From assembly GCA_021739645.1 (NCBI GenBank), contig JAIPBL010000046.1:1-50641 (forward strand): a stretch of 50,641 nucleotides of DNA. Direction: 5' to 3'. The position numbers and the translations under genes were made by a program. The notes beneath the pieces are model-generated. The model made no database searches. It saw only the letters and a program-made list of their open reading frames with translations, and had not been told where the DNA came from. Source of the DNA: Saprospiraceae bacterium (GTDB lineage Bacteria; Bacteroidota; Bacteroidia; Chitinophagales; Saprospiraceae). Below are positions 15,384 to 47,928 of the stretch, one piece after another; within the stretch, counting starts at the first letter, position 1; each line of letters begins with the position of its first letter.

Positions 15384-15407
15384 CCCTTAGCTTCGCAATT
15401 TTGAGCA

Positions 15408-15448
15408 TAAAAAAACGGGAGGTGGCAATTACCGCTTCCCGTTTTTAT
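15408..15448. terminator. Bidirectional intrinsic terminator
   Basis: AAAAAAACGGGAGGTGGC, a short AATTA loop, then CCGCTTCCCGTTTTT: a GC-rich stem flanked by A and T runs, between the convergent haloperoxidase-like gene and the gene at 15469-16230. It would work on both strands. Confidence 0.85.
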
Positions 15449-15468
15449 TTGAATTCATTGCTTTTTTC

Positions 15469-16230: not shown

Positions 16231-16288
16231 AAAAATTCATTTGCCTCATAGACAGCAGGATGGCTGGATAAAGTTGGGTCAAATTGTT

Positions 16289-20393: not shown

Positions 20394-20462
20394 GCCTTGG
20401 GAGAGTATGGTGAGGGGCGGGGATTGGATGGGGTTGTCGGTGAGCCAAATGGTATTGTCGGA

Positions 20463-28038: not shown

Positions 28039-29376
28039 ATGTTGTTCGAAGAAATCATCATATACGGTTCGGTACTGCTGCTGGTCTTGGTAGTCCTCTG
28101 GTTTTATATCAGGCTCCAAAAAAAGACCTCGAAAAAAACTGCCGAAAAGATTGAAATCGCCAAGCAGGTCGGCCTTCACGAGCCAGTCTCGCTGCACCCT
28201 GTCATTGACCTGGGCACTTGCATCAAAAGCGGTGCCTGCGTGGAAGCCTGCCCGGAAAAGGACATCATCGGCATCGTGCATGGTCGGGCCAGTTTGGTGA
28301 ATGCGGCAGAGTGCGTGGGCCATGGTGCTTGTTTTCACGCCTGCCCGGTGGAGGCAATTTCATTGGTCATCGGCACGGAGAAGCGGGGCGTGGACTTGCC
28401 GCACGTCAGCGAAAACTTCGAGACGAATGTTCCGGGCATTTATATCGCCGGGGAGTTGGGCGGCATGGGTTTGATAAAAAACAGCGTGGAGCAGGGCGAG
28501 CAGGCCATGAACAGCATTGCCCAAACTTTGACCAAAAAAGGCGGCGACCCCACAGGGGCAGTCACTTACGATGTGGTCATCATCGGTGCAGGCCCGGCGG
28601 GCATTTCCGCTTCGTTGACGGCAAAGCGGCATGGCCTGAACTTCCTCACCGTGGAGCAGGATTCGCTGGGTGGAACGGTGTTCAATTTCCCCCGTTCCAA
28701 AATCGTGATGACGGCGCCCGTGGAGTTGCCGCTGCACGGCAAAGTAAAACTGTTTGATACCAGCAAAAAGGAACTGCTCGATTTGTGGAACGAGGCATTG
28801 TCGAAAAACGGCATTACCATCCGGGAGCACACGAAGGTGGAAGGCATCCAGATGGATGGTGATATTTTCAGAGTGATGACGGCCAAAGGCGAGGAGTTCA
28901 AGACCAAAAACGTGCTGCTCGCCATCGGTCGCAGGGGCAGTCCACGTAAGCTCGGCGTACCCGGCGAGGGGCTGGAGAAAGTGGCATACCGCCTGCTCGA
29001 ACCGGAGTTGGTCATCGGCAAAAACGTGGTGGTGGTGGGCGGCGGCGACTCGGCCATCGAGGCGGCGCTATCACTGGTGGTGCAAAACAGCGTGGTGCTC
29101 AGTTACCGCAGCGATGCTTTCAGCCGGGTGAAACCGAAGAACCGGGAGAAGCTGGAAGCCGCCATTGCCGCTGGCAAAATAGACGTAAAACTGAAGTCGA
29201 ACGTCGTGAAAATAGACAAGGAACTGGTGGAACTGGCGGAAACCGGTGGCACACAGGCACTAAAAAACGACCTGGTGTACATCTTCGCCGGGGGCGAACT
29301 GCCGACACAGTTTTTGCAAAAGACGGGAGTGGAGATTAAGAAACGGTTTGGATATACGGTGAAGAAGCACCGGTGA
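28039..29376 (+). CDS. Membrane-anchored ferredoxin/FAD-NAD(P) oxidoreductase
   Basis: 445 aa. An N-terminal anchor (about 6-25) is followed by a two-cluster ferredoxin region (about 58-110) and a thioredoxin-reductase-like domain. The latter has two dinucleotide-binding sites: GAGPAG (183-188, FAD) and GGGDSAIEAAL (about 335-345, NAD(P)). The cluster motifs are unusual: C61-x5-C67-x3-C71-P and C92-x5-C98-x3-C102-P. In each the second Cys of the classical C-x2-C-x2-C-x3-C-P is replaced (Ser64, His95). So each cluster has three Cys, and may be 3Fe-4S or use another ligand. The TrxR-type C-x-x-C redox pair is not evident. It probably links NAD(P)H or ferredoxin to the cytochrome b-like protein encoded just upstream. 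Confidence 0.82.
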   Translation: MLFEEIIIYGSVLLLVLVVLWFYIRLQKKTSKKTAEKIEIAKQVGLHEPVSLHPVIDLGTCIKSGACVEACPEKDIIGIVHGRASLVNAAECVGHGACFHACPVEAISLVIGTEKRGVDLPHVSENFETNVPGIYIAGELGGMGLIKNSVEQGEQAMNSIAQTLTKKGGDPTGAVTYDVVIIGAGPAGISASLTAKRHGLNFLTVEQDSLGGTVFNFPRSKIVMTAPVELPLHGKVKLFDTSKKELLDLWNEALSKNGITIREHTKVEGIQMDGDIFRVMTAKGEEFKTKNVLLAIGRRGSPRKLGVPGEGLEKVAYRLLEPELVIGKNVVVVGGGDSAIEAALSLVVQNSVVLSYRSDAFSRVKPKNREKLEAAIAAGKIDVKLKSNVVKIDKELVELAETGGTQALKNDLVYIFAGGELPTQFLQKTGVEIKKRFGYTVKKHR

Positions 29377-29954: not shown

Positions 29955-31844
29955 TTGTTTTTGAAAAAAAACAACCACATTTCGAACCAATCAAAAGATT
30001 TGAAACATAGATTCCTACATATCCTCCTCCTCGCCCTGCTCACTAGCAGGGCCGTCGCCCAGCTATCCCCCGGCGACCTCTCCAACGCACACGCCAAGCT
30101 GGAGGGCATTTCCAACTGCACCCAGTGCCACGTGCTCGGCAGCAAGGTCTCCAACGACCTGTGCCTCGACTGCCACAAGGAAATCAAAAGCCTGATGGAC
30201 AAGCGGGCGGGCTACCACATCTCCAAAGACGTGAAGGGGAAGGACTGCGCCACCTGCCACAGCGACCACCACGGGCGCAATTTCGACATGGTCCGTTTTG
30301 ATGAAAAAAACTTCAATCACTCGCTGGCGGGGTACAAATTGGAGGGCGCTCACGCAAAAGTGGACTGCCGGGACTGCCACAAGCCGGACAACGTGGACAA
30401 TTATGATTTGAAAAAACGCAAGGACACCTACCTCGGCATGGGGGTGATATGCCTCGATTGCCACGACGATTACCACCAAAAGACCCTCGCCAACGACTGC
30501 ACCAAGTGCCACGGCATGGACGATTTCAAGCCCGCCACCAAGTTCAACCACGACAAAACGGACTTCGCCCTGGCGGGCAAACACAAAACCGTGGACTGCA
30601 AGGAATGTCATAAAATGGAGGTGAAAAATGGCAAGGACTTCCAGCATTTCGCCGGTGTACCATCCAAAAACTGCAACGCCTGCCACGATGACCCACACCG
30701 CAACCAACTCGGCTCCGACTGCAAGCAATGCCACAACGAGCAGTCCTTCGGAAGCACCAGCAGCCTGGGCCGCTTCAACCACAACCAGACAAATTTCACC
30801 TTAAAAGGAAGCCATAGAAAAGTGGACTGCCGGGACTGCCATAAGATGGACGCTGCCACGCCGACCTCCGTTTTTCAGGACCGATTGGGGGTAAAAACCA
30901 GCGAATGCGCCACCTGCCACAAGGACGTACACGAGGGCAAATTCGGGGCGGACTGCGCTGGCTGCCACAACGAGGATTCGTTCCGGAAAATCTCGGTCAA
31001 CAAACTGGAGAATTTCAACCACGCCCTAACGGGCTTCGAGCTGGCGGGCAAACACGCTGCCGTTGACTGCAAAAAATGCCATACTGCAGACAGCTTCACC
31101 GAGCCGATGCCGCACAACACCTGCGCAGTCTGCCACTCGGACTACCACGAGGGGCAGTTCACCCCCCAGCCCCCTAAAGGGGGTGTCCCGCCGGACTGTG
31201 CCGAGTGCCATGTGGAGGACGGCTTTGAGACCACCACGTTCGGCATGGCGAAGCACGAAAAGACCAAGTTTCCGCTGGATGGGGCGCACGTGGCGACGCC
31301 TTGTTTTGCGTGTCATTTGCAGGAGGAAAAATGGCGCTTCCGCAACATCGGCGAGCGGTGCGTGGACTGCCATGAGGACGTTCACAAAAAGGGGAATGAA
31401 CTCGATGAAAAATGGTATCCAGCGCAAGATTGCAAAACTTGCCACTTGACCGAAAGCTGGGCAGCGTCGGGCAGTTTTGACCACGCCAAAACGAATTTCC
31501 AACTGAAAGGCAAACACACCCAGGTGGACTGCCGGGCCTGCCACGTCAGTGAAGATGCGCCGCCGAAACGAACCTTCACCGGGTTGCCCGCCGATTGCGC
31601 AAGCTGCCATGAAGATGAACACCGGGGGCAGTTTGAAAAAGCTGGTGTGACCGACTGCGCCCGCTGCCACAGCTTCGAGGGGTGGGCGATGACGGATTTT
31701 GACCACGACAAAACGAGGTTCAAGCTGGAAGGTAAACATGTGGAGGTGGCTTGCGAGAAGTGCCACGTGCCGAAGGAGATGGATGGCGTGGTGATGGTGC
31801 AGTACCGGATGGAGGGGTTTGAGTGCGTGGTGTGTCATAAATAG
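29955..31844 (+). CDS. Multihaem c-type cytochrome, 23 CxxCH motifs
   Basis: 629 aa from a TTG codon at 29955, three bases after an in-frame TAA (29952-29954); other TTGs (29961, 30000) are possible and no ATG precedes the signal peptide. Signal sequence HRFLHILLLALLTSRAVAQ (about residues 18-36). I count 23 CxxCH haem motifs, from CTQCH to CVVCH, about one per 26 residues, with extra His (e.g. FNHSLAGY, FDHAKTNF) as distal ligands, suggesting bis-His low-potential haems. Repeating sub-structure: F-x-L-x-G-K-H-x-x-V-D-C-x-x-CH. Probably a periplasmic or outer-membrane electron carrier. One palindromic repeat is read in frame (QPPKGGVPPDC, 31162-31190). Its 3' end is partly duplicated at 32652-32766. 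Confidence 0.9.
   Translation: MFLKKNNHISNQSKDLKHRFLHILLLALLTSRAVAQLSPGDLSNAHAKLEGISNCTQCHVLGSKVSNDLCLDCHKEIKSLMDKRAGYHISKDVKGKDCATCHSDHHGRNFDMVRFDEKNFNHSLAGYKLEGAHAKVDCRDCHKPDNVDNYDLKKRKDTYLGMGVICLDCHDDYHQKTLANDCTKCHGMDDFKPATKFNHDKTDFALAGKHKTVDCKECHKMEVKNGKDFQHFAGVPSKNCNACHDDPHRNQLGSDCKQCHNEQSFGSTSSLGRFNHNQTNFTLKGSHRKVDCRDCHKMDAATPTSVFQDRLGVKTSECATCHKDVHEGKFGADCAGCHNEDSFRKISVNKLENFNHALTGFELAGKHAAVDCKKCHTADSFTEPMPHNTCAVCHSDYHEGQFTPQPPKGGVPPDCAECHVEDGFETTTFGMAKHEKTKFPLDGAHVATPCFACHLQEEKWRFRNIGERCVDCHEDVHKKGNELDEKWYPAQDCKTCHLTESWAASGSFDHAKTNFQLKGKHTQVDCRACHVSEDAPPKRTFTGLPADCASCHEDEHRGQFEKAGVTDCARCHSFEGWAMTDFDHDKTRFKLEGKHVEVACEKCHVPKEMDGVVMVQYRMEGFECVVCHK
31162..31190. repeat. In-frame palindromic repeat within the 23-haem cytochrome gene
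   Basis: ccccccagccccctaaaggg followed by ggtgtcccg; core CCCCCTAAAGGGGG at 31170-31183. Adds a Pro-rich QPPKGG segment between two haem motifs (14th and 15th) without breaking the frame. Confidence 0.75.
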
Positions 31845-31908
31845 ATGTGATACCATTTGGACAAACAATTTTTGTATTTTTACCAAGGTTAAAAACCACA
31901 ATTGGCAA

Positions 31909-32651: not shown

Positions 32652-32766
32652 GGTGAAAAACACGCCGAGGTGGCCTGCGAGAAATGCCATGTGCCGAAGG
32701 ACGTGGAGGGGGGTGATGGTGGAATATCGGATGGAGGGGTTTGAGTGTGTGGTTTGTCATAAGTAA
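32652..32766 (+). pseudogene. Frameshifted remnant of the multihaem cytochrome 3' end
   Basis: 115 nt homologous to 31731-31844. It reads GEKHAEVACEKCHVPKDVEG, then after a 2-nt loss VMVEYRMEGFECVVCHK stop, against GKHVEVACEKCHVPKEMDGV and YRMEGFECVVCHK in the intact gene. It retains two CxxCH motifs but no start. Its N-terminal part is absent, so it is an orphan tail. Confidence 0.9.
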
Positions 32767-32827
32767 TCAAACAAGTCAGGATTAAACCTAAAATTGCGCC
32801 CTAACTTTTCAGAAAAACTAGTTTGAA

Positions 32828-33631
32828 ATGAAAAAAGAAAAATCACAAAAACAAATCTTAGAGGAAAGATTTTCTGAAAACAGAAATCATTTTGAAACTA
32901 TAATGGACTTTATTTCAGAAAACGAATATCTGAAAACGCATGTTCAAAGTTACTTTAGATTAGATACCTTTTATCACAAGACAGCAATAGGTAAAATTCG
33001 GTCTTTATATATTGACGCTATCAATGCTGCAGGTGGAAATAATTTAGGGCGCAATGGCAAATCCTGTAGATTTTTTTTGAACGAATACTTAAATCGCCTT
33101 CCTCTGAATGCAGCAACTATTGACCTGTACCAGTTTTTTCACATCTTCTCCGATGAAGTAAATGATTTTGATGCTCTATTTAATTTTTTAGTTCATGATA
33201 AAGGGTTAATCAATTTGGGTAAAAAGAAAACCGCCTTATTTCTGAGAAATATTGACTGGGTGCAAGAGTTTTCTAGTGAAAGTGAAAGGTTATTCACTAA
33301 TTATCAAATTGATAAATTGGATTTACGGATACCCGTTGATGTTGTAATTGTAACGCTACTTAATGCAATTTTAAAAATACCTAGCCAAAATTATTTAAAG
33401 CCGGATAGGGATTTTGACCTAATAAATTCATTTGCGAGAGAAATTTTGAAAGAGAAATTCATGCAAATTGAAGATTTGTGGTTCTGGGGATTTTTTAATT
33501 TGAGAAACAATGAGAAAGTCAGAGATATTGGCTTTAACGAAGAGAAATATTATGCGTCAAAATTTATTTTTCCAAATGTTGAGCTTGAAAAAAAATTGAA
33601 ATGCTTTGCCAAACTATTGCTAAAAGTATGA
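32828..33631 (+). CDS. Putative HhH-GPD-like DNA glycosylase-related protein, A/T-rich
   Basis: 267 aa, cytoplasmic. The gene is visibly richer in A/T than all cytochrome genes around it. Weak similarity to the HhH-GPD fold: LINLGKKKTALFLRNIDW (a K-K-T-A helix followed by FLR.I), then the downstream LRIPVDVVIVTLL, where P-V-D would be the catalytic Asp of the GPD region, and LWFWGFFNLRNNEKVRD. In OGG/AGOG-type enzymes a Lys in the hairpin and the Asp are catalytic; here Lys and Asp are at consistent places, but the overall match is uncertain. Compositional bias suggests recent acquisition. It sits between the xisHI cassette and the 13-haem gene, whose start is about 50 nt downstream. Function is not proven. 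Confidence 0.55.
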   Translation: MKKEKSQKQILEERFSENRNHFETIMDFISENEYLKTHVQSYFRLDTFYHKTAIGKIRSLYIDAINAAGGNNLGRNGKSCRFFLNEYLNRLPLNAATIDLYQFFHIFSDEVNDFDALFNFLVHDKGLINLGKKKTALFLRNIDWVQEFSSESERLFTNYQIDKLDLRIPVDVVIVTLLNAILKIPSQNYLKPDRDFDLINSFAREILKEKFMQIEDLWFWGFFNLRNNEKVRDIGFNEEKYYASKFIFPNVELEKKLKCFAKLLLKV

Positions 33632-33682
33632 CAGGTGCTATTCACTTCGTCAACTATTAGTTGCAAAGTCTATCTGTTTAAA

Positions 33683-34741
33683 ATGCGCCATTTAACATCC
33701 ATATTCCTCCTCGCCATCACCGCAACCCTCCTTGCGCAGAACCCCCACGGCCCAGCCCTGAAAATAGACTGCGCCACCTGCCACTCCCCAGAAGGTTGGG
33801 CGATAGCTGCGGAGGCGTGGCGGCAGGAAGAACGGGTCGTCCCCGGCGAAGCCCAGCGCTTCAGCCATACCCAAACAGACTTTCCGCTGACCGGAAAACA
33901 CGGCATCGTGGACTGCCGGGACTGCCATAGCTCGCTGGTGTTCGAGGAGGCGCAAACCGGCTGCATCAACTGCCACACCGACCTGCACCAGCAGACGGTG
34001 GGCACGGACTGCGCTCGATGCCACAGCACGGAACATTGGTTGGTGGATGGCATCTCGGAACTGCATTTTGAAAACGGCTTCCCATTGCTCGGCAATCATG
34101 CGGTGGCGGACTGCCGGGACTGCCACACTTCTGAGACCTCGGTTCGCTTCGACCGCATCGGCAACGACTGCATCAACTGCCACTTCGATGCGTACCAGGC
34201 GACGACGATGCCTGACCACGAAGCGGCGGGTTATTCGACCGATTGCTGGATTTGCCACGACGTGGCAAGTCCGGGCTGGTTGTGGACAGGCGGGGCGGGC
34301 ACCCACAGTTTTTTCCCCTTGACCAAAGGCCATGCAATCAACGAATGTACGGCCTGCCATATCGGCGGGGATTTTACAAACACACCGAACGATTGTTTTG
34401 CCTGCCACCAGGCCGACTTTCAGGCGACGACCAGCCCCGACCACGAGGCGGGAGGCTTCCCAACGGACTGCACCGTCTGTCACAATACCGACCCTGGCTG
34501 GCCCGCCACGGATTTCACGCAGCACGACGATTTGTATTTCCCCATTTTCAGCGGGAAACACAACGGGGAATGGAACGAATGCACCGATTGCCACACGACG
34601 GCAGGGGATTTCAAGGCGTTCAGCTGCATTGACTGCCACGAACACGATGACCCCGGCGACCTCGCAGATGAACATAACGAGGTTTCAGACTATACTTATT
34701 CGAGTCAGGCTTGTTATGCCTGCCACCCGAAAGGAAATTAA
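33683..34741 (+). CDS. Multihaem c-type cytochrome, 13 CxxCH motifs
   Basis: 352 aa from the ATG at 33683 (MRHLTSIFLLAITATLLAQN); the 16 upstream in-frame codons are not part of the signal peptide. Signal peptide about 1-18. I count 13 CxxCH motifs. The whole mature protein is collinear with the first 13 motifs of the giant cytochrome next to it: starts QNPHG..K.DCA.CHSP.GW, then SLVFE, LHQQTVG.DCARCH, LRFDRIGN-like, SFFPLTKGH, NDCFACHQ and YFPI.SGKH. It ends CIDCHEHDDPGDLADEHNEV and CYACHPKGN, which matches the C-terminus of the giant. So it has both ends of the giant with none of the inner repeats. Likely a periplasmic or surface electron carrier; 174-nt gap to the next gene. Confidence 0.92.
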   Translation: MRHLTSIFLLAITATLLAQNPHGPALKIDCATCHSPEGWAIAAEAWRQEERVVPGEAQRFSHTQTDFPLTGKHGIVDCRDCHSSLVFEEAQTGCINCHTDLHQQTVGTDCARCHSTEHWLVDGISELHFENGFPLLGNHAVADCRDCHTSETSVRFDRIGNDCINCHFDAYQATTMPDHEAAGYSTDCWICHDVASPGWLWTGGAGTHSFFPLTKGHAINECTACHIGGDFTNTPNDCFACHQADFQATTSPDHEAGGFPTDCTVCHNTDPGWPATDFTQHDDLYFPIFSGKHNGEWNECTDCHTTAGDFKAFSCIDCHEHDDPGDLADEHNEVSDYTYSSQACYACHPKGN

Positions 34742-34915
34742 GAATGCTTGGCAACCCCGGCGATATATTTTACGAATGCAAAATAGACACGCCCGTTCAA
34801 CACAAACAATACCCTGTTCGGGAAATTTCTCCGCCTCCATTGAGGAATGTCACCGAGTGAACACCTTACTTGGTCATAGATTTGTCAAAACCACTCCGCA
34901 TAGATTATAATAAAA
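34742..34915. other. 174-nt gap between the 13-haem and giant cytochrome genes
   Basis: No gene or clear hairpin. One open frame runs on from the 13-haem gene without protein-like features. The stretch directly before the GTG start (attataataaaagtg) is A/T-rich and may contain a promoter. Confidence 0.4.
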
Positions 34916-37900
34916 GTGTACAAATTAACATCCGGCATCTTTCTACTGGGCTTTGCGACTTGCCTATTTTCGCAAAACCCACACGGCACAACCATGAAAA
35001 TGGACTGTGCAGCCTGCCATTCACCGGCGGGCTGGGAGATAGCGGCGGAGCACTGGAAGAATATCGAACTGCAAAAGCCGAAAAAGTCGAGGACCACCGG
35101 GATGCCAATGCCTGTTGACACATCCCTATTCCACCACAATAAAACGGAGTTTCCACTTTCAGGTCGCCACGCCAATGTGAACTGCAAGGATTGCCATACC
35201 AGTTTGGTTTTTGAAAAAACCAGCAGTGACTGCATCTCCTGCCATGCCGACATGCACCAGCAAACCGTCGGAAACGACTGCGCTCGCTGCCACACGCCCA
35301 ACAACTGGCTCGTGGACGACATCCAAAATATCCACTTCGAAAATGGTTTTCCGCTCACGGGCGTTCACAAAACGGTGAGCTGCACCGAGTGCCACGTGAG
35401 CGAAACTGCATTGCGGTTTGACCGGATCGGCAATACCTGCGTGGACTGCCACCTCGCCGATTTCAACAATACCACCAACCCAAACCACCCACAGGCGGGA
35501 TTCTCCACCAACTGCCTCGAATGTCACGACATTAACACGGCGGACTGGAACACAGACAAAGTGGACCATTCGTTTTTCCCGCTGACGAAAGGCCACGAAA
35601 CCAATGATTGTGCGAAATGCCACGTCGGCGGTGACTTTGCGAACACACCAACCAACTGCTTCGCCTGCCACCAACCGGACTTCGAGGGGTCAACAAACCC
35701 AAACCACATCAACGCCAACTTCCCGAACGACTGCGCCCAGTGCCACACCACAGACCTTGACTGGATGCCCGCACAGTTTTTAGCACACGATGGACAGTAT
35801 TTCCCGATTTACAGCGGCAAACACGCTGGCGTCTGGAACAGTTGCACGGAGTGCCATACCGACCCGAACAACTACGCCACCAACAGTTGCACCATCTGCC
35901 ACATAAACCCCGAAACGGACGATGGGCACACGAACGTGGTGGGCTATGTGTATGAAAATTCGGCCTGCCTAACCTGTCACCCGACGGGCGAAACGGATGG
36001 CGCATTCAACCACAATTCGACCGCCTTCCCGCTGACGGGGGCGCACCTCACGACGGACTGCATCGAATGCCACGCCAATGGCTATGCTGGCACACCAACG
36101 GAATGTGCGGCCTGCCACACCCCAGATTTTGACCAAACGACCAACCCGAACCACGTAAGTTTGAATCTGTCGAACGATTGTGCAAGCTGCCACACGACTG
36201 ACCCAGGCTGGGCGCCAGCGACTTTTGCCGAACACAATGACCACTATGTATTGAACGGCGCTCACGCAACGATTGCGAATGATTGCGCTGCCTGCCACAA
36301 CGGCAATTACACAAACACACCGAACACCTGTGCGGGCTGTCACACACCCGATTTCAACACAGCGGTTGACCCAAACCACGTGACGAACCAATTCCCGATG
36401 GACTGCGCGACCTGCCACTCGGAGGATGCTTGGGTGCCTTCGACCTTTGACCACAACGGGGTTTGGCCATTCACCGGGGCACATATTGCGGTAGCAAATG
36501 AATGTGCGCAATGCCACATCAACGGGAACTACTCGAACACACCGACGGACTGTGCGGGTTGTCACACGCCCGATTTCAACGGCTCGACAAACCCGAACCA
36601 CACGGCACTGAACCTGCCGAACGACTGTGCGATGTGCCACACCACGGCGCCTGATTGGCAGCCTGCGGCCTTCCCGATTCACGATGATTTTTATATTTTA
36701 AATGGCGCTCACGCAAACATGGCAAACGACTGCGCCGCTTGTCACAACGGGGATTACAACAACACGCCAAACACCTGCTTCGGCTGCCACTCGGCGGACT
36801 ACAACGCCACGACAAACCCGAACCACGGCGCTTTGATGTTCTCACAAGATTGTACAGAGTGCCACTCCGAAACGGCTTGGACGCCTTCGACTTTTGACCA
36901 CGATGGGCAGTATTTTCCAATTTATAGCGGAGCGCACAACGGCGAGTGGAATTCGTGCGTTGACTGCCACACCAATCCCGGCGATTACACGCAATTCTCT
37001 TGTACGACCTGTCACGCAAACCCCGAAACCAACGACCAGCACAACGGCGTGGGCGGTTATGTTTACCAAAGTGACGCCTGCTTCGCTTGCCACCCGACGG
37101 GCGATGCAAGCAATATTTTTGACCACAACACGACGGCCTTCCCACTAACGGGAGCGCACCTCACGGCAGAGTGCTTGGACTGCCACTCAGCGGGATTCCA
37201 GGGTACGCCAACGGACTGCGCAGCTTGTCACACGACCGATTTCAACCAAAGCCAAAACCCGCCGCACGTGGCGCTGAACGTCCCGACGGATTGCGCAAGC
37301 TGCCACACAACCGATCCGGGTTGGGCACCTGCGACCTTTGCCATCCACAATGATTACTATGTATTGAACGGCGCTCACGCAACGATTGCGAACGACTGCA
37401 CCACCTGCCACAACGGCAATTACACCAACACGCCGAACACCTGTGCTGGCTGCCACACGCCCGATTTCAATGGGGTGAGCGACCCGAACCACGTGGCGAA
37501 CCAGTTCCCGATGGACTGTGCCACCTGCCACTCAGAAACGGCTTGGGCACCTTCGACTTTTGACCACAACGCTACTTGGCCGTTCACCGGGGCGCACGTT
37601 GCGGTAGCAAACGAATGTGCGCAATGCCATGTCGGTGGCAACTACACGACCACGCCAACGGACTGCGCTGGCTGCCACACGCCCGATTTTAACCAAAGTC
37701 AGAACCCGAATCACACGGCGCTGAACCTGCCGAATGACTGTGCGATATGCCACACGACTGCACCAGACTGGCAGCCTGCGGCCTTCCCGATTCACGATGA
37801 TTTTTATGTATTGAACGGCGCTCACGCAAACATCGCCAACGACTGCGCAGCCTGTCACAACGGGGATTACAACAACACGCCAAACACCTGCTTTGGCTGC

Positions 37901-40900
37901 CATGCTGCGGATTACAATGGCACGACGAACCCGAACCACGCTTCGGCGCAGTTCCCGACGGACTGTGCAAGCTGCCATAGCGAGAGCACTTGGGTGCCTG
38001 CGAACTTCGACCACGACGGGCAGTACTTCCCGATTTACAGCGGGGCGCACAACGGCGAGTGGAACGCCTGCATTGACTGCCACTCGAACCCGGCAAATTA
38101 CGCCGAGGTGAGCTGCACAACCTGCCACGTGAACCCGGAGACGAACGACCAGCACAACGGCGTCGGCGGGTATTCTTACAGCAGTCCAGCCTGCCTCGCC
38201 TGCCACCCGACGGGGGATGCGCAGGACATTTTTGACCACAACTCGACCATGTTCTCATTGACGGGAGCGCACCTCTCGGCGGAGTGTATGGACTGCCACT
38301 CAGCGGGATTCCAGGGCACGCCCACGGATTGTGCGGCTTGCCACACCACTAATTTCAATGGCTCGACGAACCCGGACCATGTGGCGCTCGGCCTCCCGAC
38401 GGATTGCGCAAGCTGCCACACCACGCAGCCAGATTGGGCGCCAGCGAGCTTTGCGATTCACAACCAGTTTTATCAACTGAATGGCGCTCACGCAACGATT
38501 GCAAACGACTGCGCCACCTGCCACAACGGCAACTACAACAATACCCCGAACACTTGCATCGGTTGCCACACCGCAGATTTCAATGGCACAACTGACCCCG
38601 ACCACGAGGCCAACCAGTTCCCGACCGACTGTCAGGAATGCCACACGGAGTCGGCTTGGGTACCTTCCACTTTTGACCACAACGGGGTTTGGCCGTTCAC
38701 CGGGGCACATATTGCGGTAGCAAACGAATGTGCGCAATGCCATGTCGGCGGAAACTATTCGACGACGCCGAATACCTGCAACGGCTGCCACACGCCAGAT
38801 TTCAACGGCTCGACTAACCCGAACCACGTGTCGCTCGGCCTACCGAACGACTGTGCGATGTGCCATACGACTGCACCTGACTGGACACCTGCACAGTTCC
38901 CAATTCACGATGATTTTTATGTATTGAATGGCGCTCACGCAAACATTGCGAACGACTGCGCCGCCTGCCACAACGGCAACTACAACAATACGCCGAACAC
39001 CTGCATCGGTTGCCATTCGGCGGACTACAATGGCACGACGAACCCAGACCATGCTGCTGCGCAATTCTCGACGGACTGTGCGACTTGCCACTCGGAGACG
39101 GCCTGGATACCTGCTAATTTTGACCACGATGCACAGTATTTTCCGATTTACAGTGGAACCCACAACGGGGAGTGGAGCGCCTGTGTGGACTGCCACAACA
39201 ACCCGAACAATTTTGCTGAATTCACTTGTACTACCTGCCATGCAAACCCGGAGACGGACAACCAACACAACGGCGTGGGGGGCTACCAATACAACAGCAA
39301 CGCTTGTTTTGCCTGCCACCCGACGGGGGAGGGGCAGGGCGGTTTTGACCACAACACCATTTGGCCATTGACCGGAGGTCACTTAAACGCTGACTGTGTG
39401 GATTGCCATGCCAACGGCTATCAGGGCACACCTACCAATTGCGATGCCTGCCATATTGCCGATTTCAACAGTAGCCAAAACCCGAACCACGTGGCACTGA
39501 ACATTCCGACGGATTGCGCAAGCTGCCACACGACCGACCCGGGATGGGCACCTGCTACGTTTGCCATTCACGACGATTACTACCCGCTGACGGGGGCGCA
39601 CGTACCGGTCGCCAACGACTGTGCGGCCTGTCACAACGGGAACTACAACAACACGCCGAACACCTGCGCTGGCTGTCACACACCGGATTACAACGGCAGC
39701 ACGAACCCGAACCACCAAGCACTGAACCTGCCGACGGATTGTGAAACTTGCCACACGACGGCCCCGGATTGGCAGCCTGCAAGCTTCCCGATTCACGACC
39801 AGTTTTACCAATTGAACGGCGCTCACGCAAACATCCAGAACGACTGCGCCACCTGCCACAACGGCAATTACAACAACACACCAAACACCTGCGTGGGCTG
39901 CCACTTGGCGGACTACAACGGCACGACGAACCCCGACCACGAAGCAGCGCAGTTCCCGACGACCTGTGACGATTGCCACACGGAGACGGCTTGGGTACCT
40001 GCCAATTTTGACCATAACCAGTTTTGGCCGTTGACGGGAGCGCATATTCCGATTCAAAATGATTGTGCATCCTGCCACATTGGGGGGAATTACAACAACA
40101 CACCGAACACTTGCGACGGCTGCCACATGCCCGACTACAACGGCGCCACCGACCCGAACCACGTGGCCAACCAGTTCCCAGTGACTTGTGAGGATTGCCA
40201 CACGACGGGGGCTTGGGTGCCTTCCAGTTTTGACCACAATACTATCTGGCCGTTGACGGGGGCGCACATTCCGATTCAAAATGAATGTGTCCAATGCCAT
40301 GTTGCCGGCAATTACTCGACCACGCCGAACACCTGCGCCGGCTGTCACACACCAGATTACAACAGCAGCACGAACCCAAATCACGTGGCACTGAATCTGC
40401 CGACGGATTGCGAAAGCTGCCACACCACGGCACCAGATTGGGAGCCTGCAACCTTTGCCATTCACAACCAATTTTATCAATTGAATGGTGCTCACGCAAA
40501 CATCCAAAACGACTGTGCCGCCTGCCACAACGGCAATTACAACAATACACCAAATACTTGTGCGGGCTGCCACTTGGCGGACTACAATGGCACGACGAAC
40601 CCGAACCACGCTGCCAACCAGTTTCCGACAACCTGTGAAGACTGCCACACGGAGACGGCTTGGGTGCCCTCGACGTTTGACCACAACCAGTTTTATCCGT
40701 TCACGGGGGCGCACGTGCCGATTCAAAACGACTGTGCGGCTTGTCACAATGGCAATTACAACAACACGCCGAACACCTGCGAGGGCTGTCACCTGCCCGA
40801 CTACAACGGCAGCACCAACCCGAACCACGTGGCGCTTGCCCTACCAACTGACTGTGTGATGTGCCATACCACCGACCCTGACTGGAACCCGGCACTTTTC

Positions 40901-41347
40901 CCGATTCACAACCAGTTTTGGCCATTTGAAGGGGCGCACGTGGCTATCCAAAACGACTGCGCAACCTGTCACAACGGCAATTACAACAACACGCCAAACA
41001 CCTGCTACGGCTGCCACGCATCGGACTACAACGGAGCGAACAACCCGAATCACCAATCGGCGGGCTTCCCGACCACCTGCGAAAGTTGTCACTCGCAATC
41101 TGCTTGGACTCCAGCCAATTGGGACCACGACAACATGTACTTCCCGATTTACAGCGGTAAGCATGAGGATGAATGGAACCAGTGTATTGAGTGCCACACG
41201 ACACCGAACAACTACTCAATGTTCAGTTGTATTGACTGCCATGAGCATGATGACCCAGCAGATATGGCTGACAAGCACCAGGGGGTGAATGGGTATCAGT
41301 ACAGTAGCCCAGCTTGTTATGCTTGCCATCCGACTGGGGAGGATTAG
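34916..41347 (+). CDS. Giant multihaem c-type cytochrome, 85 CxxCH motifs, modular
   Basis: 2143 aa from a GTG start at 34916 with signal peptide (MYKLTSGIFLLGFATCLFSQ). By manual count it has 85 CxxCH motifs and no other Cys except one in the signal peptide. Motifs 1-13 match the neighbouring 13-haem protein. Then come three super-repeats of exactly 1113 nt (371 aa, 15 motifs each; 35966-37078, 37079-38191, 38192-39304), and a final 670 aa with 27 motifs. The basic unit is about 74 residues with three haems (e.g. ANDCAACHNGNYNNTPNTC, GCHTPDFNGSTNPNH, then DCASCHTT). Conserved non-motif His (TNPNH, AIHDDFY, FDHN, TGAH) suit distal ligands, so bis-His haems in a closely spaced chain are likely. 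Inferred role: long-range electron transfer in or outside the outer membrane. Confidence 0.93.
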   Translation: MYKLTSGIFLLGFATCLFSQNPHGTTMKMDCAACHSPAGWEIAAEHWKNIELQKPKKSRTTGMPMPVDTSLFHHNKTEFPLSGRHANVNCKDCHTSLVFEKTSSDCISCHADMHQQTVGNDCARCHTPNNWLVDDIQNIHFENGFPLTGVHKTVSCTECHVSETALRFDRIGNTCVDCHLADFNNTTNPNHPQAGFSTNCLECHDINTADWNTDKVDHSFFPLTKGHETNDCAKCHVGGDFANTPTNCFACHQPDFEGSTNPNHINANFPNDCAQCHTTDLDWMPAQFLAHDGQYFPIYSGKHAGVWNSCTECHTDPNNYATNSCTICHINPETDDGHTNVVGYVYENSACLTCHPTGETDGAFNHNSTAFPLTGAHLTTDCIECHANGYAGTPTECAACHTPDFDQTTNPNHVSLNLSNDCASCHTTDPGWAPATFAEHNDHYVLNGAHATIANDCAACHNGNYTNTPNTCAGCHTPDFNTAVDPNHVTNQFPMDCATCHSEDAWVPSTFDHNGVWPFTGAHIAVANECAQCHINGNYSNTPTDCAGCHTPDFNGSTNPNHTALNLPNDCAMCHTTAPDWQPAAFPIHDDFYILNGAHANMANDCAACHNGDYNNTPNTCFGCHSADYNATTNPNHGALMFSQDCTECHSETAWTPSTFDHDGQYFPIYSGAHNGEWNSCVDCHTNPGDYTQFSCTTCHANPETNDQHNGVGGYVYQSDACFACHPTGDASNIFDHNTTAFPLTGAHLTAECLDCHSAGFQGTPTDCAACHTTDFNQSQNPPHVALNVPTDCASCHTTDPGWAPATFAIHNDYYVLNGAHATIANDCTTCHNGNYTNTPNTCAGCHTPDFNGVSDPNHVANQFPMDCATCHSETAWAPSTFDHNATWPFTGAHVAVANECAQCHVGGNYTTTPTDCAGCHTPDFNQSQNPNHTALNLPNDCAICHTTAPDWQPAAFPIHDDFYVLNGAHANIANDCAACHNGDYNNTPNTCFGCHAADYNGTTNPNHASAQFPTDCASCHSESTWVPANFDHDGQYFPIYSGAHNGEWNACIDCHSNPANYAEVSCTTCHVNPETNDQHNGVGGYSYSSPACLACHPTGDAQDIFDHNSTMFSLTGAHLSAECMDCHSAGFQGTPTDCAACHTTNFNGSTNPDHVALGLPTDCASCHTTQPDWAPASFAIHNQFYQLNGAHATIANDCATCHNGNYNNTPNTCIGCHTADFNGTTDPDHEANQFPTDCQECHTESAWVPSTFDHNGVWPFTGAHIAVANECAQCHVGGNYSTTPNTCNGCHTPDFNGSTNPNHVSLGLPNDCAMCHTTAPDWTPAQFPIHDDFYVLNGAHANIANDCAACHNGNYNNTPNTCIGCHSADYNGTTNPDHAAAQFSTDCATCHSETAWIPANFDHDAQYFPIYSGTHNGEWSACVDCHNNPNNFAEFTCTTCHANPETDNQHNGVGGYQYNSNACFACHPTGEGQGGFDHNTIWPLTGGHLNADCVDCHANGYQGTPTNCDACHIADFNSSQNPNHVALNIPTDCASCHTTDPGWAPATFAIHDDYYPLTGAHVPVANDCAACHNGNYNNTPNTCAGCHTPDYNGSTNPNHQALNLPTDCETCHTTAPDWQPASFPIHDQFYQLNGAHANIQNDCATCHNGNYNNTPNTCVGCHLADYNGTTNPDHEAAQFPTTCDDCHTETAWVPANFDHNQFWPLTGAHIPIQNDCASCHIGGNYNNTPNTCDGCHMPDYNGATDPNHVANQFPVTCEDCHTTGAWVPSSFDHNTIWPLTGAHIPIQNECVQCHVAGNYSTTPNTCAGCHTPDYNSSTNPNHVALNLPTDCESCHTTAPDWEPATFAIHNQFYQLNGAHANIQNDCAACHNGNYNNTPNTCAGCHLADYNGTTNPNHAANQFPTTCEDCHTETAWVPSTFDHNQFYPFTGAHVPIQNDCAACHNGNYNNTPNTCEGCHLPDYNGSTNPNHVALALPTDCVMCHTTDPDWNPALFPIHNQFWPFEGAHVAIQNDCATCHNGNYNNTPNTCYGCHASDYNGANNPNHQSAGFPTTCESCHSQSAWTPANWDHDNMYFPIYSGKHEDEWNQCIECHTTPNNYSMFSCIDCHEHDDPADMADKHQGVNGYQYSSPACYACHPTGED
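35966..39304 (+). repeat. Three tandem 1113-bp coding super-repeats
   Basis: Boundaries taken at the first Cys codon of the C-x-x-C-H-P-T-G motif: 35966, 37079, 38192, 39305, each spaced exactly 1113 nt. Each unit encodes five three-haem modules, one carrying the variant spacer with YFPIYSG and CTTCH-type NPET(N/D) text. The strict length conservation with sequence divergence points to ancient unequal duplications under structural constraint. Confidence 0.85.
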
Positions 41348-43695: not shown

Positions 43696-44511
43696 ATGAA
43701 TCAGATAAATCGTATCCTTTCATTTTTCTTCGTAAAAACACTTGGTTCAATCACTTTATTGATGGCCATTTTATTGGGAGCATGCAACTCAGGCCCAGAA
43801 GTGGTTCAAGCAGACCCCGCTAGCGAGACTGCCCCATCCCTCTTCCAAGACCCAGGCGCAGCATCCCCAAACATCAATACTTCACCCTCCCAGCAGGACC
43901 TCGACGCCACGGAGCACAAGGTAGTGGTGGATGAAAAGCTGGACACCGACAAATACTCCTACTTGCGGGTAAAAGAAAACGGTCAGGAATTTTGGGTAGC
44001 CGTGCTGAAGCAGGACGTAAAAATCGGCAACAGTTACCTGTTTAGAGGTGGTTTGATGAAAAAGAACTTCCAAAGCAAGGAATACAATCGGGTATTCGAG
44101 ACGCTGTACCTCGTCTCAGATTTTAGGCCGGCAGGCGCTGCTACGAGCGAGGCCACACCGGCAGAAGCCCATGCCAATGCAAAGGACAACTCAACGGTCG
44201 AACCGCCAAAAAGCATAATCGTTGCCCCGGGCGCTGTCAAAATCGCTGACCTCGTGGCCAACCTCGCCAAGTACGATGGCAAATCCGTAAAAGTGACCGG
44301 GAAAGTGATGAAGCTAAACCCCATGATTATGGGCCGGAACTGGCTGCACCTTCAAGATGGCTCTGGCAAAGGCGTGGACCTGACAGTAACGACAGTGGAA
44401 CAAGTGACACTTGGTTCGACAGTTACACTGGAGGGCGTACTTGCACTCAACAAAGACTTTGGGGCAGGGTACAAATACGATTATATTTTGGAGGGTGCAG
44501 TGTCAAAATGA
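43696..44511 (+). CDS. Lipoprotein with C-terminal OB-fold-like domain
   Basis: 271 aa. Signal of lipoprotein type (long N-terminal region, lipobox LLGAC about residue 30). Two parts: a middle beta domain (about 65-140) with YLRVKENGQEFWVAVLKQDV and GNSYLFRGGLMKKNFQSKEY, similar to the GW-like or 'nucleotide-binding-like' domain often fused in Bacteroidota; then a linker; then a C-terminal OB-fold-like domain (about 175-271) with VKIADLVANLAKYDGKSVKV and NWLHLQDGSGKGVDLTVTTV. The D-G-S/T-G pattern resembles OB-fold proteins near cytochrome genes. Probably in the envelope and connected to the multihaem system by position (14 nt after the HNH gene). Function unknown. Confidence 0.7.
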   Translation: MNQINRILSFFFVKTLGSITLLMAILLGACNSGPEVVQADPASETAPSLFQDPGAASPNINTSPSQQDLDATEHKVVVDEKLDTDKYSYLRVKENGQEFWVAVLKQDVKIGNSYLFRGGLMKKNFQSKEYNRVFETLYLVSDFRPAGAATSEATPAEAHANAKDNSTVEPPKSIIVAPGAVKIADLVANLAKYDGKSVKVTGKVMKLNPMIMGRNWLHLQDGSGKGVDLTVTTVEQVTLGSTVTLEGVLALNKDFGAGYKYDYILEGAVSK

Positions 44512-44581: not shown

Positions 44582-47500
44582 TCATACATTTTTTAAGCCT
44601 TTTTGATAAGCCCGGTGCCGCCACCACGCCACCAAACTCAGCACCGTCAGCGCACCCACCGTCCAGTGCACCCAAGCTGGAATTGGCACGGGGTCGCCCG
44701 CCGCATACGAGTGCAAGCCGGAGAGGTAATAGTTTACCCCAAAATAAGTCATCATCACCGTCGCCCAACCGAATAGCGTGGACACGTTGAATGCGTAAAC
44801 CCCTCGAAAACCGGGGATGAAACGCATGTGCAGAATAAAAGCATAGACAAGAATGGTGACCAAAGCCCAGGTTTCCTTGGCATCCCAGCCCCAGTAACGG
44901 CCCCATGATTCATTGGCCCAAATCCCACCGAGGTACGTGCCGATGCTGACCATGAACAAGCCACCGATGAGTGTCATTTCGCTGGTATAGGTCAGTTCCT
45001 TGACGATTCGATAGACCCTTTCCCCATTTTTTTGGTTGCCAAATATCATGAAAACCAGGTTGAGCACCCCGATGATGGCACCCAATGCGAGAAAGCCATA
45101 ACTGCCCGCTTCCAACGATACGTGAATCATCAACCAATAGGATTTCAGCACGGGAACGAGGGGCGTGATTTCCGGGTCGAGCCAGTTCATGCCAGCCACC
45201 ATGAGGATGACGGCGGCCAGCACGGTCGTCGCAGCCAAACCACCGTTTGCCTTTCTGGCGAAAATCAGCCCTGCCAGCGTGGTCGTCCAGCCGATATAAA
45301 CCATGGACTCGTAGCCATTGCTCCACGGGGCACGACCGCCCACGTACCAGCGCAAACCAAGTCCGAGGGTGTGCATAAAAAAACCAAAGACAAGAATGCC
45401 AAAAGCTATTTTATTCAGTGCTTTTAAATTAATGTTTGGATTAAAAACGCCCGTAAACAATAGCCCTAAAAATAACAGCGACAATAACCCATATACCCCA
45501 CTCAAACGGTTAAAAATATTGAGTTTATTGAGTATAAGCTCTGCTTTTATCTTGCCTTTGGATGGTAAGACATCCCCACCATAGCGATGTTGGTATTTGT
45601 CCAACTCCGACAACATCCGGTTCGCCAGGGCCCAGTCCTTGCTCTGCATTGAGCTTTTCAAGACAGGCACATAAGCTGGGTAAAAAGTTTCGATGATGCT
45701 GCCCGCAAACTTTGAGTCGAGCATTCCGCTCGGGTCGTCGGGCACAGCAGCCTGCCAGGTATGGGTCGTATCGTTTGGCACCGGAAACACCTTCATGAAC
45801 CGCCCTGAAAAAACCATGCTGCAGATGTTCAGTTTTTCGTCCAGCTTCATCACTTCTTTATCAAAAACACTGCGGTCACGCTGCGGTGTGTTGTAAGCAG
45901 TTCGCACAACTTCCCGCATTTTATAGTCACCATTTTGGTCAAAAAAGTCCCCGAACTTTGCCATTTCACCATCGACACCCAGTATTTTTCGGATTTCCTC
46001 ATGCTTGCCCAGCTTAATAAGCGGCACATCGTACCATGCCTTTGGGTTGGCGGCCATGCCGAGTATTACCTGCTCCGCAGACTGCCCGTAAAGCGTTTCC
46101 TTTTTCGCCAATTTGCGGAGCACCTCCCCAGCAAATGTGTTCATTGGTTTGAACCTACCTTGGTAGTCCTGTATCAAAATACGCCCAAAGGCATCCGCAT
46201 GGGCCTTGTCCACAGCGGGCAAGGGGGCATTCTCGCAATTACTTGGCGTGGAAAAAGCCAAAAAGAGTCCCACCATCACGGCAGTCACCAATTTCTCTGG
46301 GGTATTTCTCATGTTTTTCAAATTCTTCGAAAGTTGAGCAAAACGGGTCTTTTTACTGAAAAACGTCCAAATCATACCCAGCGTAAGCAGTGCATAACCG
46401 ATGTAAGAAATCCAGGTACCAGGTGCATCAAAATTCACGCTGAGATAAGTGCCGAGTTCGTCCTTGTCAAACGACGACTGGAAGAACCGATAGCCGTCGT
46501 AGTCCAAAATATTGTTCATGAAGATGCGCTGGTCTTTAACGAGGTTTTTCCGCTGGTCCATCAGCGTCACCTCACTGGCATACGAGGAGGCGTTGTTCGT
46601 GCCGGGGTATCGCTCCATGATGAAGTCGTTGAGTTTGATGGAAAACGGCAGCGCCACCCTCCTTGCCCCGTAAGATACGCCCACACTTGAACTGCCAAAA
46701 GGTAAAATCTTGGGCTCGCCCTCCACGCCCTGAGCGCCTGCCACAAAGGCGGTTTTTTCTACACCATCGAAAGTGACACTCAGACCCACACCTCCCATGC
46801 TGTTGCTGTTCATCTTTTTGGAGGAAGAGGTCACCGCTGCCCGTGCATGTGGGCTGAAAGCACCGAACACGAAGCTGTGCATCCCATCAGAGTACATGCT
46901 GCGCAAGCGCAAAGGGTGGTACATGCCAGACGCCAGTGTATCCTTGGTTTGGGTGGCCATCACCATCTGAGAAAACGTGGTTGGTGCCATGAAATACAGG
47001 CTGTCATTTTGGTATTTGATATTGAATGCCTGCGGCAATTCGGTGCCTCCAAAATTGAACAAAGTACCGTAAATATTGGAATTTTGTCCCCGCTGCACGA
47101 GGTATTCCTCCCGGCCACCCCTTCCAGCGATTACGACTTTCAGTGTGGGCAAGCCGTTGTCATCGTCCACCATCGTTTCGGTAGGGTTGGGTATAAAATC
47201 CTTCACTTCCACCTTCAGTTCCTTGCCGCCCAGCAGGTAGGATTTTTTTATAGAATTGTCGCCCAAGCTGGCAAAAAGCACCGGCTCATCTATCCGAAAA
47301 TTCTTCCCCTCATTCATCACCTGAAACTGAAGGTAAGTCTCTGCCGACAAGAACGAGTTGGAAGCACTGCCCTCCCGGATGCCCATCATTCCCTCCTTCC
47401 CGAAATAACGGGTCACCCCAGCTCCAAAGATGATAATCACCATGGAGGCATGAAAGATTAGCAGTGGCCATTTCTTTTGTTGCACCATGCGAAAACGGAA

Positions 47501-47704
47501 GATATTGACAATCAAGGTGATAGAAAACATCACAAGCAAAAGTTCGAACCACCTTGCCTTGAAGATGACCTTCTGCGCTGCGCTAGTACCAAAGTCATTC
47601 TCAACAAAGGTGGCAACGCCGATGGATACTGCAAACAGTATAATATAAAGTCCTGCAGCGGAGGTAGAGAAAAGGCTGTCAAACAATTTTTTCAAGAGCT
47701 TCAT
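44582..47704 (-). CDS. Fused cytochrome c maturation protein ResB-CcsA (system II)
   Basis: 1040 aa from the ATG at 47704 (MKLLKKLFDSLFSTSAAGLY); earlier in-frame Met adds no ResB-like sequence. ResB part (about 1-500): three to four helices at the N-terminus, large periplasmic domain. CcsA part (about 700-1040): several helices with the haem-handling WWD motif WGRYWGWDAKETWA (about 935-948) and conserved His in GLGLRWYVGG-type and IHVSLEAGSYG segments. System II transports haem and attaches it to CxxCH motifs. A central hydrophilic region (about 510-690) with AFGRILIQDYQGRFKPMNTF is usual in Bacteroidota fusions. Its closeness to genes encoding about 120 haem motifs is functionally sensible. 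Convergent with the lipoprotein gene. Confidence 0.92.
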   Translation of the reverse strand: MKLLKKLFDSLFSTSAAGLYIILFAVSIGVATFVENDFGTSAAQKVIFKARWFELLLVMFSITLIVNIFRFRMVQQKKWPLLIFHASMVIIIFGAGVTRYFGKEGMMGIREGSASNSFLSAETYLQFQVMNEGKNFRIDEPVLFASLGDNSIKKSYLLGGKELKVEVKDFIPNPTETMVDDDNGLPTLKVVIAGRGGREEYLVQRGQNSNIYGTLFNFGGTELPQAFNIKYQNDSLYFMAPTTFSQMVMATQTKDTLASGMYHPLRLRSMYSDGMHSFVFGAFSPHARAAVTSSSKKMNSNSMGGVGLSVTFDGVEKTAFVAGAQGVEGEPKILPFGSSSVGVSYGARRVALPFSIKLNDFIMERYPGTNNASSYASEVTLMDQRKNLVKDQRIFMNNILDYDGYRFFQSSFDKDELGTYLSVNFDAPGTWISYIGYALLTLGMIWTFFSKKTRFAQLSKNLKNMRNTPEKLVTAVMVGLFLAFSTPSNCENAPLPAVDKAHADAFGRILIQDYQGRFKPMNTFAGEVLRKLAKKETLYGQSAEQVILGMAANPKAWYDVPLIKLGKHEEIRKILGVDGEMAKFGDFFDQNGDYKMREVVRTAYNTPQRDRSVFDKEVMKLDEKLNICSMVFSGRFMKVFPVPNDTTHTWQAAVPDDPSGMLDSKFAGSIIETFYPAYVPVLKSSMQSKDWALANRMLSELDKYQHRYGGDVLPSKGKIKAELILNKLNIFNRLSGVYGLLSLLFLGLLFTGVFNPNINLKALNKIAFGILVFGFFMHTLGLGLRWYVGGRAPWSNGYESMVYIGWTTTLAGLIFARKANGGLAATTVLAAVILMVAGMNWLDPEITPLVPVLKSYWLMIHVSLEAGSYGFLALGAIIGVLNLVFMIFGNQKNGERVYRIVKELTYTSEMTLIGGLFMVSIGTYLGGIWANESWGRYWGWDAKETWALVTILVYAFILHMRFIPGFRGVYAFNVSTLFGWATVMMTYFGVNYYLSGLHSYAAGDPVPIPAWVHWTVGALTVLSLVAWWRHRAYQKGLKNV

Positions 47705-47928
47705 GCATAATTTTTTGATTAAAATCGAAGTTGCGAAATTAGTCAATACAATCCGGTTCAAATAGGTTTTGCAGTGATTTCCGCAGTGTTAAACACCCGT
47801 TCGGCAGGCACAGCGTCACGAGGTACAAAACCAATAACACCGCCTATACTGCTTGGGGAATAACCTTTTTCAATAAATCTCAAATCGGAGGCGTTTATGG
47901 TTTAATACTTTCAAAAAAAAGCAAAACT
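47705..47928. other. 224-nt divergent gap, upstream of ResB-CcsA and CAP genes
   Basis: Probably contains both promoters, but I see no TAnnTTTG element at clear spacing, RNA gene or repeat. Confidence 0.4.

Follow-up and report, generated by a model that had tools for sequence, protein, structure and literature searches.

We describe a giant multihaem cytochrome encoded at positions 34,916 to 41,347 of a 50,641-nucleotide stretch of DNA from a Saprospiraceae bacterium (Bacteroidota; assembly GCA_021739645.1, contig JAIPBL010000046.1, positions 1 to 50,641 of the forward strand), hereafter the window. In our assessment, the protein is probably the outer end of an electron conduit that spans the cell envelope, with 85 covalently bound, bis-His, low-spin haems arranged as a continuous chain. 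Among the observations in favor of this reading are two: the chain supplies one positionally fixed histidine for every haem site, and its gene belongs to a gene set that recurs across Bacteroidota, in which a multihaem cytochrome is encoded beside a predicted outer-membrane beta-barrel protein.

A giant cytochrome built from three-haem modules

The frame of the giant is open over 34904-41347, with a GTG at 34916 as its first start codon and a stop codon ending at 41347. A script counted 85 CxxCH motifs, and allowing longer spacings added none. The protein has 171 cysteines, 170 inside motifs and one, C16, in an N-terminal leader peptide that we judged by eye, in agreement with a preliminary description of this DNA that had reported 85 motifs and a single other cysteine. 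At 2143/85, the density is 25 residues per haem. Only three stop-free frames of at least 80 codons in the window contain two or more CxxCH motifs, with 23, 13, and 85, respectively.

The architecture is one lone haem followed by 28 modules of three haems, a total that is not a multiple of three. Module length has a median of 75 residues and falls between 70 and 79 in 27 of the 28 modules, while motifs are spaced by 15/16, 25, and 33/35 residues, with exceptions chiefly in the first modules and in a distinctive "cap" module that contains FPIYSG. A cap closes each of five blocks of 13, 15, 15, 15, and 27 haems, giving the module order mmmC mmmmC mmmmC mmmmC mmmmmmmmC, where C is the cap. The final 27 haems occupy residues 1469-2138, that is, 670 residues. 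The block split, the module length of about 74 residues, and the nine modules in the last 670 residues had all been proposed beforehand, and our automated analysis bears them out.

The histidines of the giant follow the same plan. Outside the CxxCH motifs there are 89, of which 88 lie in the modules: three per module, and four more spread over modules 1, 6, and 28. The 84 positional histidines of the modules and H23, in an NPHG motif ahead of haem 1, make 85 for 85 haems. An alignment that took in 13 of the 28 modules, none a cap, shows H11, H22, and H58 as invariant. The pattern extends to the family, in which several genomes came up twice (G003, for one, also as L058) and each set of identical frames was counted once: a histidine stands no more than 12 residues before haem 1 in 81/81 N-termini, and non-motif histidines equal or exceed the haem number in 74/74 complete frames, seven of the 81 N-termini having been set aside because their frame runs off the locus. 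Judged from these positions, all 85 haems of the giant can be bis-His, and the pairing of 85 motifs with 85 distal histidines would fit low-spin electron carriers over catalytic haems. That the CxxCH sites instead bind another metal or Fe-S clusters is highly improbable; we found no point in its support, and the distal histidine at each site, the matches to cytochrome families, the leader peptide, and the ResB-CcsA gene nearby all speak against it.

Profile searches place the giant among multihaem c-type cytochromes. It matches PF14522 (Cytochrome_C7) at 286.3 bits (cut-off 24.8), the MtrC/F domain II-IV family at 150 bits, and TIGR04257 ("nanowire_3heme") at 60.9 bits (cut-off 40), which is consistent with the wire-like role first suggested for it. 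A match to M60-like_N (27.7 bits, cut-off 23) was judged spurious. The NCBIfam search of the 13-haem protein gave no matches, and neither did a phmmer search of the giant against PDB sequences. For structural work we used alignments of 66 (A2) and 38 (A4) sequences besides that of the window, both requiring an intact frame and A4 a matching haem spacing as well. Against solved structures, the A4 profile reached a sixteen-haem cytochrome at an E value of 1.4e-5 and one more chain at 0.005; a profile of the modules found MtrC and a sixteen-haem cytochrome at 1e-4, ahead of PpcA entries at 0.04-0.08. The haem spacing order is 15-25-35 in the giant versus about 25-16-36 in the c7-like 23-haem protein, and given this difference a strict c7 identity of the modules is no more than possible.

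A gene set conserved in Bacteroidota

The giant is encoded together with other candidate electron transfer proteins (Table 1). A set comprising a membrane protein, an oxidoreductase with flavin adenine dinucleotide (FAD) and Fe-S features, a 20/23-haem cytochrome, a giant, a barrel protein, and a GW-domain protein is conserved in Bacteroidota; a 13/16-haem cytochrome is optional, and a ResB-CcsA fusion is often present. In the window, the 13-haem paralogue is 55% identical to the giant over residues 6-313 and 64% identical over residues 2070-2142.

Table 1. Positions of the giant cytochrome, its segments, and neighboring genes in the window
Feature	Position	Strand	Remarks
Giant multihaem cytochrome	34916..41347	+	2143 aa; 85 CxxCH, a lone haem and 28 three-haem modules
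Segment 1: leader, lone haem 1 (NPHG His), modules 1-4 (haems 2-13)	34916..35980	+	Layout as in 13-haem paralogue
Segment 2: haems 14-28, five modules, the final one a cap	35981..37093	+	
Segment 3: haems 29-43	37094..38206	+	80% amino acid and 81% nucleotide identity to segment 2
Segment 4: haems 44-58	38207..39319	+	
Segment 5: haems 59-85, nine modules, terminal cap	39320..41329	+	
Cytochrome b-like membrane protein, 289 aa	27083..27952	+	WLEFH-13-H on the third, SGIIG on the fourth, and WHVAH-13-H on the fifth of five hydropathy segments read by eye
FAD / NAD(P)-type oxidoreductase	28039..29376	+	N-terminal hydrophobic segment, two ferredoxin-like Cys motifs
23-haem cytochrome	29955..31844	+	Cytochrome_C7 repeats
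13-haem paralogue	33635..34741	+	1 + 4 modules
Predicted outer-membrane beta-barrel protein, 541 aa	41372..42997	+	C-terminal Phe
GW-domain protein	43696..44511	+	Leader looks lipoprotein-like by eye; gene conserved behind barrel
ResB-CcsA fusion	44582..47761	-	System II cytochrome c assembly

To follow this gene set, we scanned a species-genome collection with an alignment of the barrel. The scan confirmed 386 of 465 stretches, of which the best 80 were kept; with a plasmid of Emticicia, these make up 81 loci, many of them cut by contig ends. All but one of the best 80 are titled Bacteroidota or subgroups of it, the exception (L084) being titled Thermoanaerobaculia, possibly through a binning error. 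Matches to the membrane protein and the FAD protein were found in 38 and 40 of the 81 loci, respectively, and in the 38 loci with both of these and the barrel, the three are colinear without exception. The GW-domain protein occurs in 53/81 loci, directly behind the barrel in 50, and ResB-CcsA in 41/81, downstream in 37 and upstream in four. A multihaem frame lies immediately upstream of the barrel in 78/80 loci, two of these frames being of the 23-haem type (L074 and L104), and the two loci without one have merely 181 and 558 bases at that place.

The barrel was present in 34 of 395 sampled Bacteroidota genomes (E value of 1e-10, the window's own included), representing 27 of 171 genera. On the plasmid of Emticicia oligotrophica DSM 17448, the genes for CcsA, the membrane protein, the FAD protein, 23-haem and 40-haem cytochromes, the barrel, and the GW-domain protein stand in a row. 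In the plasmid collection, Emticicia was the sole match for the giant and for the barrel alike.

Partner proteins of the proposed line

The membrane protein resembles a di-haem cytochrome b. A hydropathy scan gave seven overlapping windows that we read by eye as five segments, with WX3HX13H on segments three and five and SGXXG on segment four. Among 38 membrane-protein frames, 34 have two WX3HX13H motifs with SGXXG between them; the remaining four run into the edge of the locus and have one copy each. Relatives of this protein are also present on plasmids of Qipengyuania and Sphingobium, where the cytochromes that we read have at most 10 CxxCH, and of Alteromonas; on the Alteromonas plasmid (L140, 11839-26527), a weak relative is accompanied by genes for a cytochrome c3 family protein and a NiFe hydrogenase.

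The FAD / NAD(P)-type oxidoreductase is the probable cytoplasmic electron gate. Both of its ferredoxin-like motifs lack the second cysteine, with Ser/Thr in its place in the first motif and His in the second. Across the 81 loci, 37 frames fit the double motif and all 37 have this replacement; the Fe-S ligands of the protein are possibly unusual. The 23-haem cytochrome is a probable periplasmic link, and its nearest solved sequence is 3OV0, which is GSU1996 of Geobacter (E value of 3e-4). Lys and Arg make up 13% of this protein versus 0.9% of the giant, whose net charge is -195 before haem propionates are counted, a difference that is consistent with different surroundings for the two.

The barrel protein was recognized from its predicted fold. 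It had no matches in Pfam and NCBIfam, and none by phmmer against PDB sequences. The predicted structure (predicted local distance difference test score [pLDDT] of 83.8, predicted template modeling score [pTM] of 0.64) has a small N-terminal beta domain and, by manual count, 22 strands. Foldseek aligned it with many outer-membrane barrels, with a best template modeling score of 0.49 among the best 50 rows. We rejected an MtrB-type identity, as there is no Pfam match to that family and no such barrel among the same 50 rows.

Growth of the chain by repeated modules

Relatives of the giant occur in Saprospiraceae and beyond, as the homologue search called for in the preliminary description has revealed. 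Among 100 genomes searched, 27 had a match, the window's own included. In 20 fetched regions, the complete frames with at least 61 haems have 61, 64, 76, 82, 82, 85, 88, 88, 91, and 94, and the remaining frames have 13 to 31 haems or run off their contig. In six genomes of the same genus, the complete frame has between 82 and 94 haems.

Haem number follows a simple rule. Of 74 distinct complete family frames, 13/16-haem paralogues among them, 64 have a haem number of 1 + 3k, from 13 to 94. Members of this family share ancestry, which means that their counts are not independent observations. The frames that deviate, ten in number, have 12, 14, 23, 24, 27, 30, 30, 32, 33, and 39 haems. Further sampling yielded six more complete frames, of 22, 43, 34, 28, 37, and 40 haems, all of which obey the rule and five of which come from single-contig genomes; two of the eight regions fetched for this sample (L159 and L161) had no complete family frame. 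In 12 of 52 loci, the barrel-adjacent frame departs from the rule, including the 23-haem type at L074 and L104 as well as L073 and L119, whose frames look truncated or frameshifted. The 46-haem frame of L075 has several shorter cytochrome frames beside it and may be broken. At L087 (11681-15996), a second large cytochrome lies downstream of the barrel as two overlapping frames with 39 and 18 haems, possibly frameshifted.

These patterns suggest that the chain would lengthen by the copying of whole three-haem modules and of capped segments, with its reach changing in fixed steps. The three 15-haem blocks of the giant share 75-80% of their residues and 79-81% of their nucleotides in pairwise comparison. 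Between near relatives, the last segment varies by a single module, for totals of 27, 28, or 29, and in a 76-haem relative (G025), an mmC unit is repeated seven times after the first four modules. When cytochromes of at least 61 haems and shorter ones are mapped onto a tree of 45 barrel proteins, the division takes six changes, at least five of them forced by well-supported branches, which indicates that cytochrome size jumped repeatedly; the labels of L075 and L087 on this tree may stem from broken frames, and assembly from short reads may conceal modules or fuse them.

An argument can be made that a protein of this kind is a misassembly, a pseudogene, or a chance repeat. Assembly easily goes wrong in tandem repeats, and most relatives are titled as metagenome-assembled genomes, so the exact haem count may be off by one module. 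We nevertheless give this explanation hardly any weight. The frame is open, the 15-haem blocks have diverged to 79-81% DNA identity, and there are six genomes of the same genus with frames of 82-94 haems, which together make an assembly artefact unlikely. One of these relatives, G003, also has 85 haems in the same layout and shares 84% identity with our giant from end to end, with 24 of the 28 modules finding their best match at the same index. The ratio of nonsynonymous to synonymous substitution rates (dN/dS) between the two is 0.08, at a dS of 1.33 that is near saturation; on this measure, the giant is under purifying selection. In addition, 82 haems are found in Phaeodactylibacter xiamenensis KD52, a record titled as a strain.

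An electron line across the envelope and its alternatives

Under the reading that we favor, electrons would pass from the FAD/Fe-S oxidoreductase to an inner-membrane di-haem cytochrome b, then to the 23-haem periplasmic cytochrome, and from there to the giant and its 13-haem paralogue. The neighboring barrel would hold the giant in or at the outer membrane, where electrons could be delivered to, or taken from, something outside, and ResB-CcsA would attach haem to the cytochromes. Within this scheme, we infer the attachment and continuity of the haems, the direction of flow, the contact between barrel and cytochrome, the extracellular reach, and the electron acceptor.

Several results weigh against this scheme. 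We saw no signal for export of the giant beyond the periplasm. The barrel resembles generic outer-membrane barrels only, with no cytochrome-sheathing porin among the best 50 Foldseek rows, and because loci were selected by the barrel, its linkage with cytochromes is conditional on that choice. An AlphaFold model of haems 1-28 was of low confidence (pLDDT of 58.6, pTM of 0.28), and Foldseek returned no matches for it. The host has four matches to the haem-copper oxidase family above its cut-off and may not need extracellular respiration, and our sequence analysis indicated no electron acceptor.

The cell-surface location suggested in the preliminary description likewise finds no backing in any sorting signal that we saw. 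A lipoprotein was considered and rejected: of 20 related frames, only 3 have a cysteine within eight residues of the end of the leader, and its place varies; C16, which a giant of the same genus (G006) shares with ours, has surroundings that by eye are no lipobox. Cargo of the type IX secretion system (T9SS) was rejected as well, as searches of Pfam and NCBIfam at an E value of 0.001 found no C-terminal sorting domain in the giant. Other proteins of the window do have T9SS tails (PF18962), two of them above cut-off, and a PorP/SprF protein is also encoded there.

A chain of haems extends by about 1 nm per haem, and the periplasm is 20-30 nm wide. If the 85 haems were spaced as in GSU1996, where haem edges lie 3-5 Å apart (PMC10138318), the chain would stretch for about 80 nm, which exceeds the periplasm, and it would then need either to curl or lie flat, or else to exit the cell.

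A chain that stays inside could serve as an electron store. On this account, which we regard as rather unlikely, the giant buffers up to 85 electrons per molecule as oxygen comes and goes, and the barrel serves some other purpose. The lack of a visible export signal beyond the leader and the oxidases of the host are in keeping with it, and PMC11495043 suggests a capacitor role for high-haem proteins of Saprospiraceae and others. Yet a store would need no barrel, and a multihaem frame sits directly upstream of one at nearly all loci, though the barrel was the query; the membrane protein, too, fits a transfer line. Another alternative is an internal respiratory line that ends at a soluble acceptor in the periplasm, the barrel being the pore that admits it. 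The barrel could indeed be an open pore, and the cytochrome and hydrogenase genes beside the weak Alteromonas relative (21% identity to our membrane protein, E value of 8e-3) suggest that such proteins can have other partners. We consider this line distinctly improbable, as we recognized no terminal reductase among the conserved genes of the set and a range of 13 to 94 haems is hard to explain over a short route.

The trans-envelope conduit can be taken a step further, as a tentative proposal that is itself less likely true than false. The giant would be a single-chain cable anchored by the barrel, with its reach outside the cell set by the copying of capped segments. About 13 haems, as in the short forms, would be enough to cross the envelope, while chains of 61-94 would project tens of nanometers beyond it, serving external respiration or cell-to-cell wiring in Saprospiraceae and other Bacteroidota. 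Such a cable would be mobile on plasmids and would require no polymerized filament.

Relation to known systems

The closest likeness that we found is to the porin-cytochrome gene cluster PCC3, which He et al. (2017, PMC5566968) describe as a porin, an extracellular multihaem cytochrome (MHC) with up to 85 sites (in Agromonas), and a periplasmic MHC with a median of 21 sites. Its large MHCs have 22-39 residues per haem and repeats, and the system is reported from Alpha-, Beta-, and Gammaproteobacteria. The membrane proteins of PCC3 and PCC4, read there as a probable di-haem cytochrome b, all have SGXXG and two WX3HX13H motifs; in PCC3 there are about 300 residues and five transmembrane segments, with SGXXG on the fourth and WX3HX13H on the third and fifth. 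The Saprospiraceae locus shares with PCC3, as described, a barrel, a large MHC (here 85 haems at 25 residues per haem), a second MHC (here 23 haems), and the signature of the membrane protein. By contrast, PCC3 barrels have up to 42 strands versus 22 here, and the FAD/Fe-S oxidoreductase, GW-domain protein, and ResB-CcsA of the Bacteroidota set are not named in the description of PCC3. The word "Bacteroidetes" is absent from the main text of that paper, supplements aside, and PCC3 was still termed functionally unverified in 2025 (PMC12442390). Judged by these comparisons, the locus is part of an uncharacterized porin-cytochrome-like system of Bacteroidota that appears to work in the manner of PCC3. 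We do not file it as PCC3, because the barrel and the giant are set beside that system by description and not by sequence comparison.

Other conduits offer partial parallels. MtrCAB and MtoAB similarly combine a barrel with multihaem cytochromes that cross the outer membrane, but MtrA and MtrC are decahaem proteins (PMC11475568) as against 85 haems, and our barrel has no Pfam match. The triheme "nanowire" GSU1996 has tandem three-haem domains on one chain and a TIGR04257 match in common with the giant; it differs in having 12 haems, one of them His-Met in each domain (PMC10138318), whereas the giant permits bis-His throughout. In OmbB-like porin clusters of Burkholderiales, 24- and 49-haem MHCs precede the porin and close relatives vary in motif number (PMC7399161); those clusters are betaproteobacterial, and their likeness to our locus is by description only.

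Very large cytochromes have been reported before, and the view that ours is far larger than those known has to be given up. Besides the 85 sites of the Agromonas PCC3 protein, an ANME-2c MHC has 86 haem motifs in one chain together with S-layer and pectin lyase-like domains (PMC9012536), whereas Pfam and NCBIfam searches of the giant gave no S-layer domain. A Desulfuromonas soudanensis MHC has 69 motifs in one chain (PMC4914508), and a survey of about 60,000 genomes found gene neighborhoods with more than 100 (PMC11475568). In activated sludge, Saprospiraceae dominate a list of high-haem proteins, with over 100 motifs in some Bacteroidota and 112 in Paludibaculum (PMC11495043). Those Saprospiraceae proteins, listed as secreted, come from the same bacterial family as the window and likely belong to the family of the giant; what that source offers on them, as far as its text goes, is counts and speculation, and neither an operon nor a module rule, a barrel, or a membrane protein figures there. 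Giants like ours are already in print. In the open-access literature, leaving supplements and most subscription papers out of scope, we found no account of the Bacteroidota gene set, its barrel, or the 1 + 3k rule.

Other genes of the window

Genes for XisH and XisI, with a small open reading frame, lie between the 23-haem and 13-haem genes (31819-33631). No XisH match was found in 20 regions from relatives, although not every one of these extends over the corresponding position. A gene for an HNH protein stands between those for the barrel and the GW-domain protein. Farther away, 18648-21050 encodes a Roc-COR GTPase with an effector-associated domain 11, adjoined by a protein that resembles leucine-rich-repeat families below cut-offs. 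At 12441-17863, MopE copper-binding repeats and a T9SS tail occur in one protein along with a marginal haloperoxidase-like match, and another protein nearby likewise has a T9SS tail, together with matches to copper monooxygenase below threshold.

Significance

If our interpretation is right, many Bacteroidota carry their own complete electron line across the envelope, and the signature of the membrane protein would tie the PCC3 of Proteobacteria to it. The system can be tested, as carriers titled as strains exist, among them Emticicia oligotrophica DSM 17448 (on its plasmid), Phaeodactylibacter xiamenensis KD52, Labilibaculum, and Draconibacterium aestuarii. Cytochromes of 13 to 94 haems built on one plan provide a natural series in which the length of a chain can be set against long-range electron flow.

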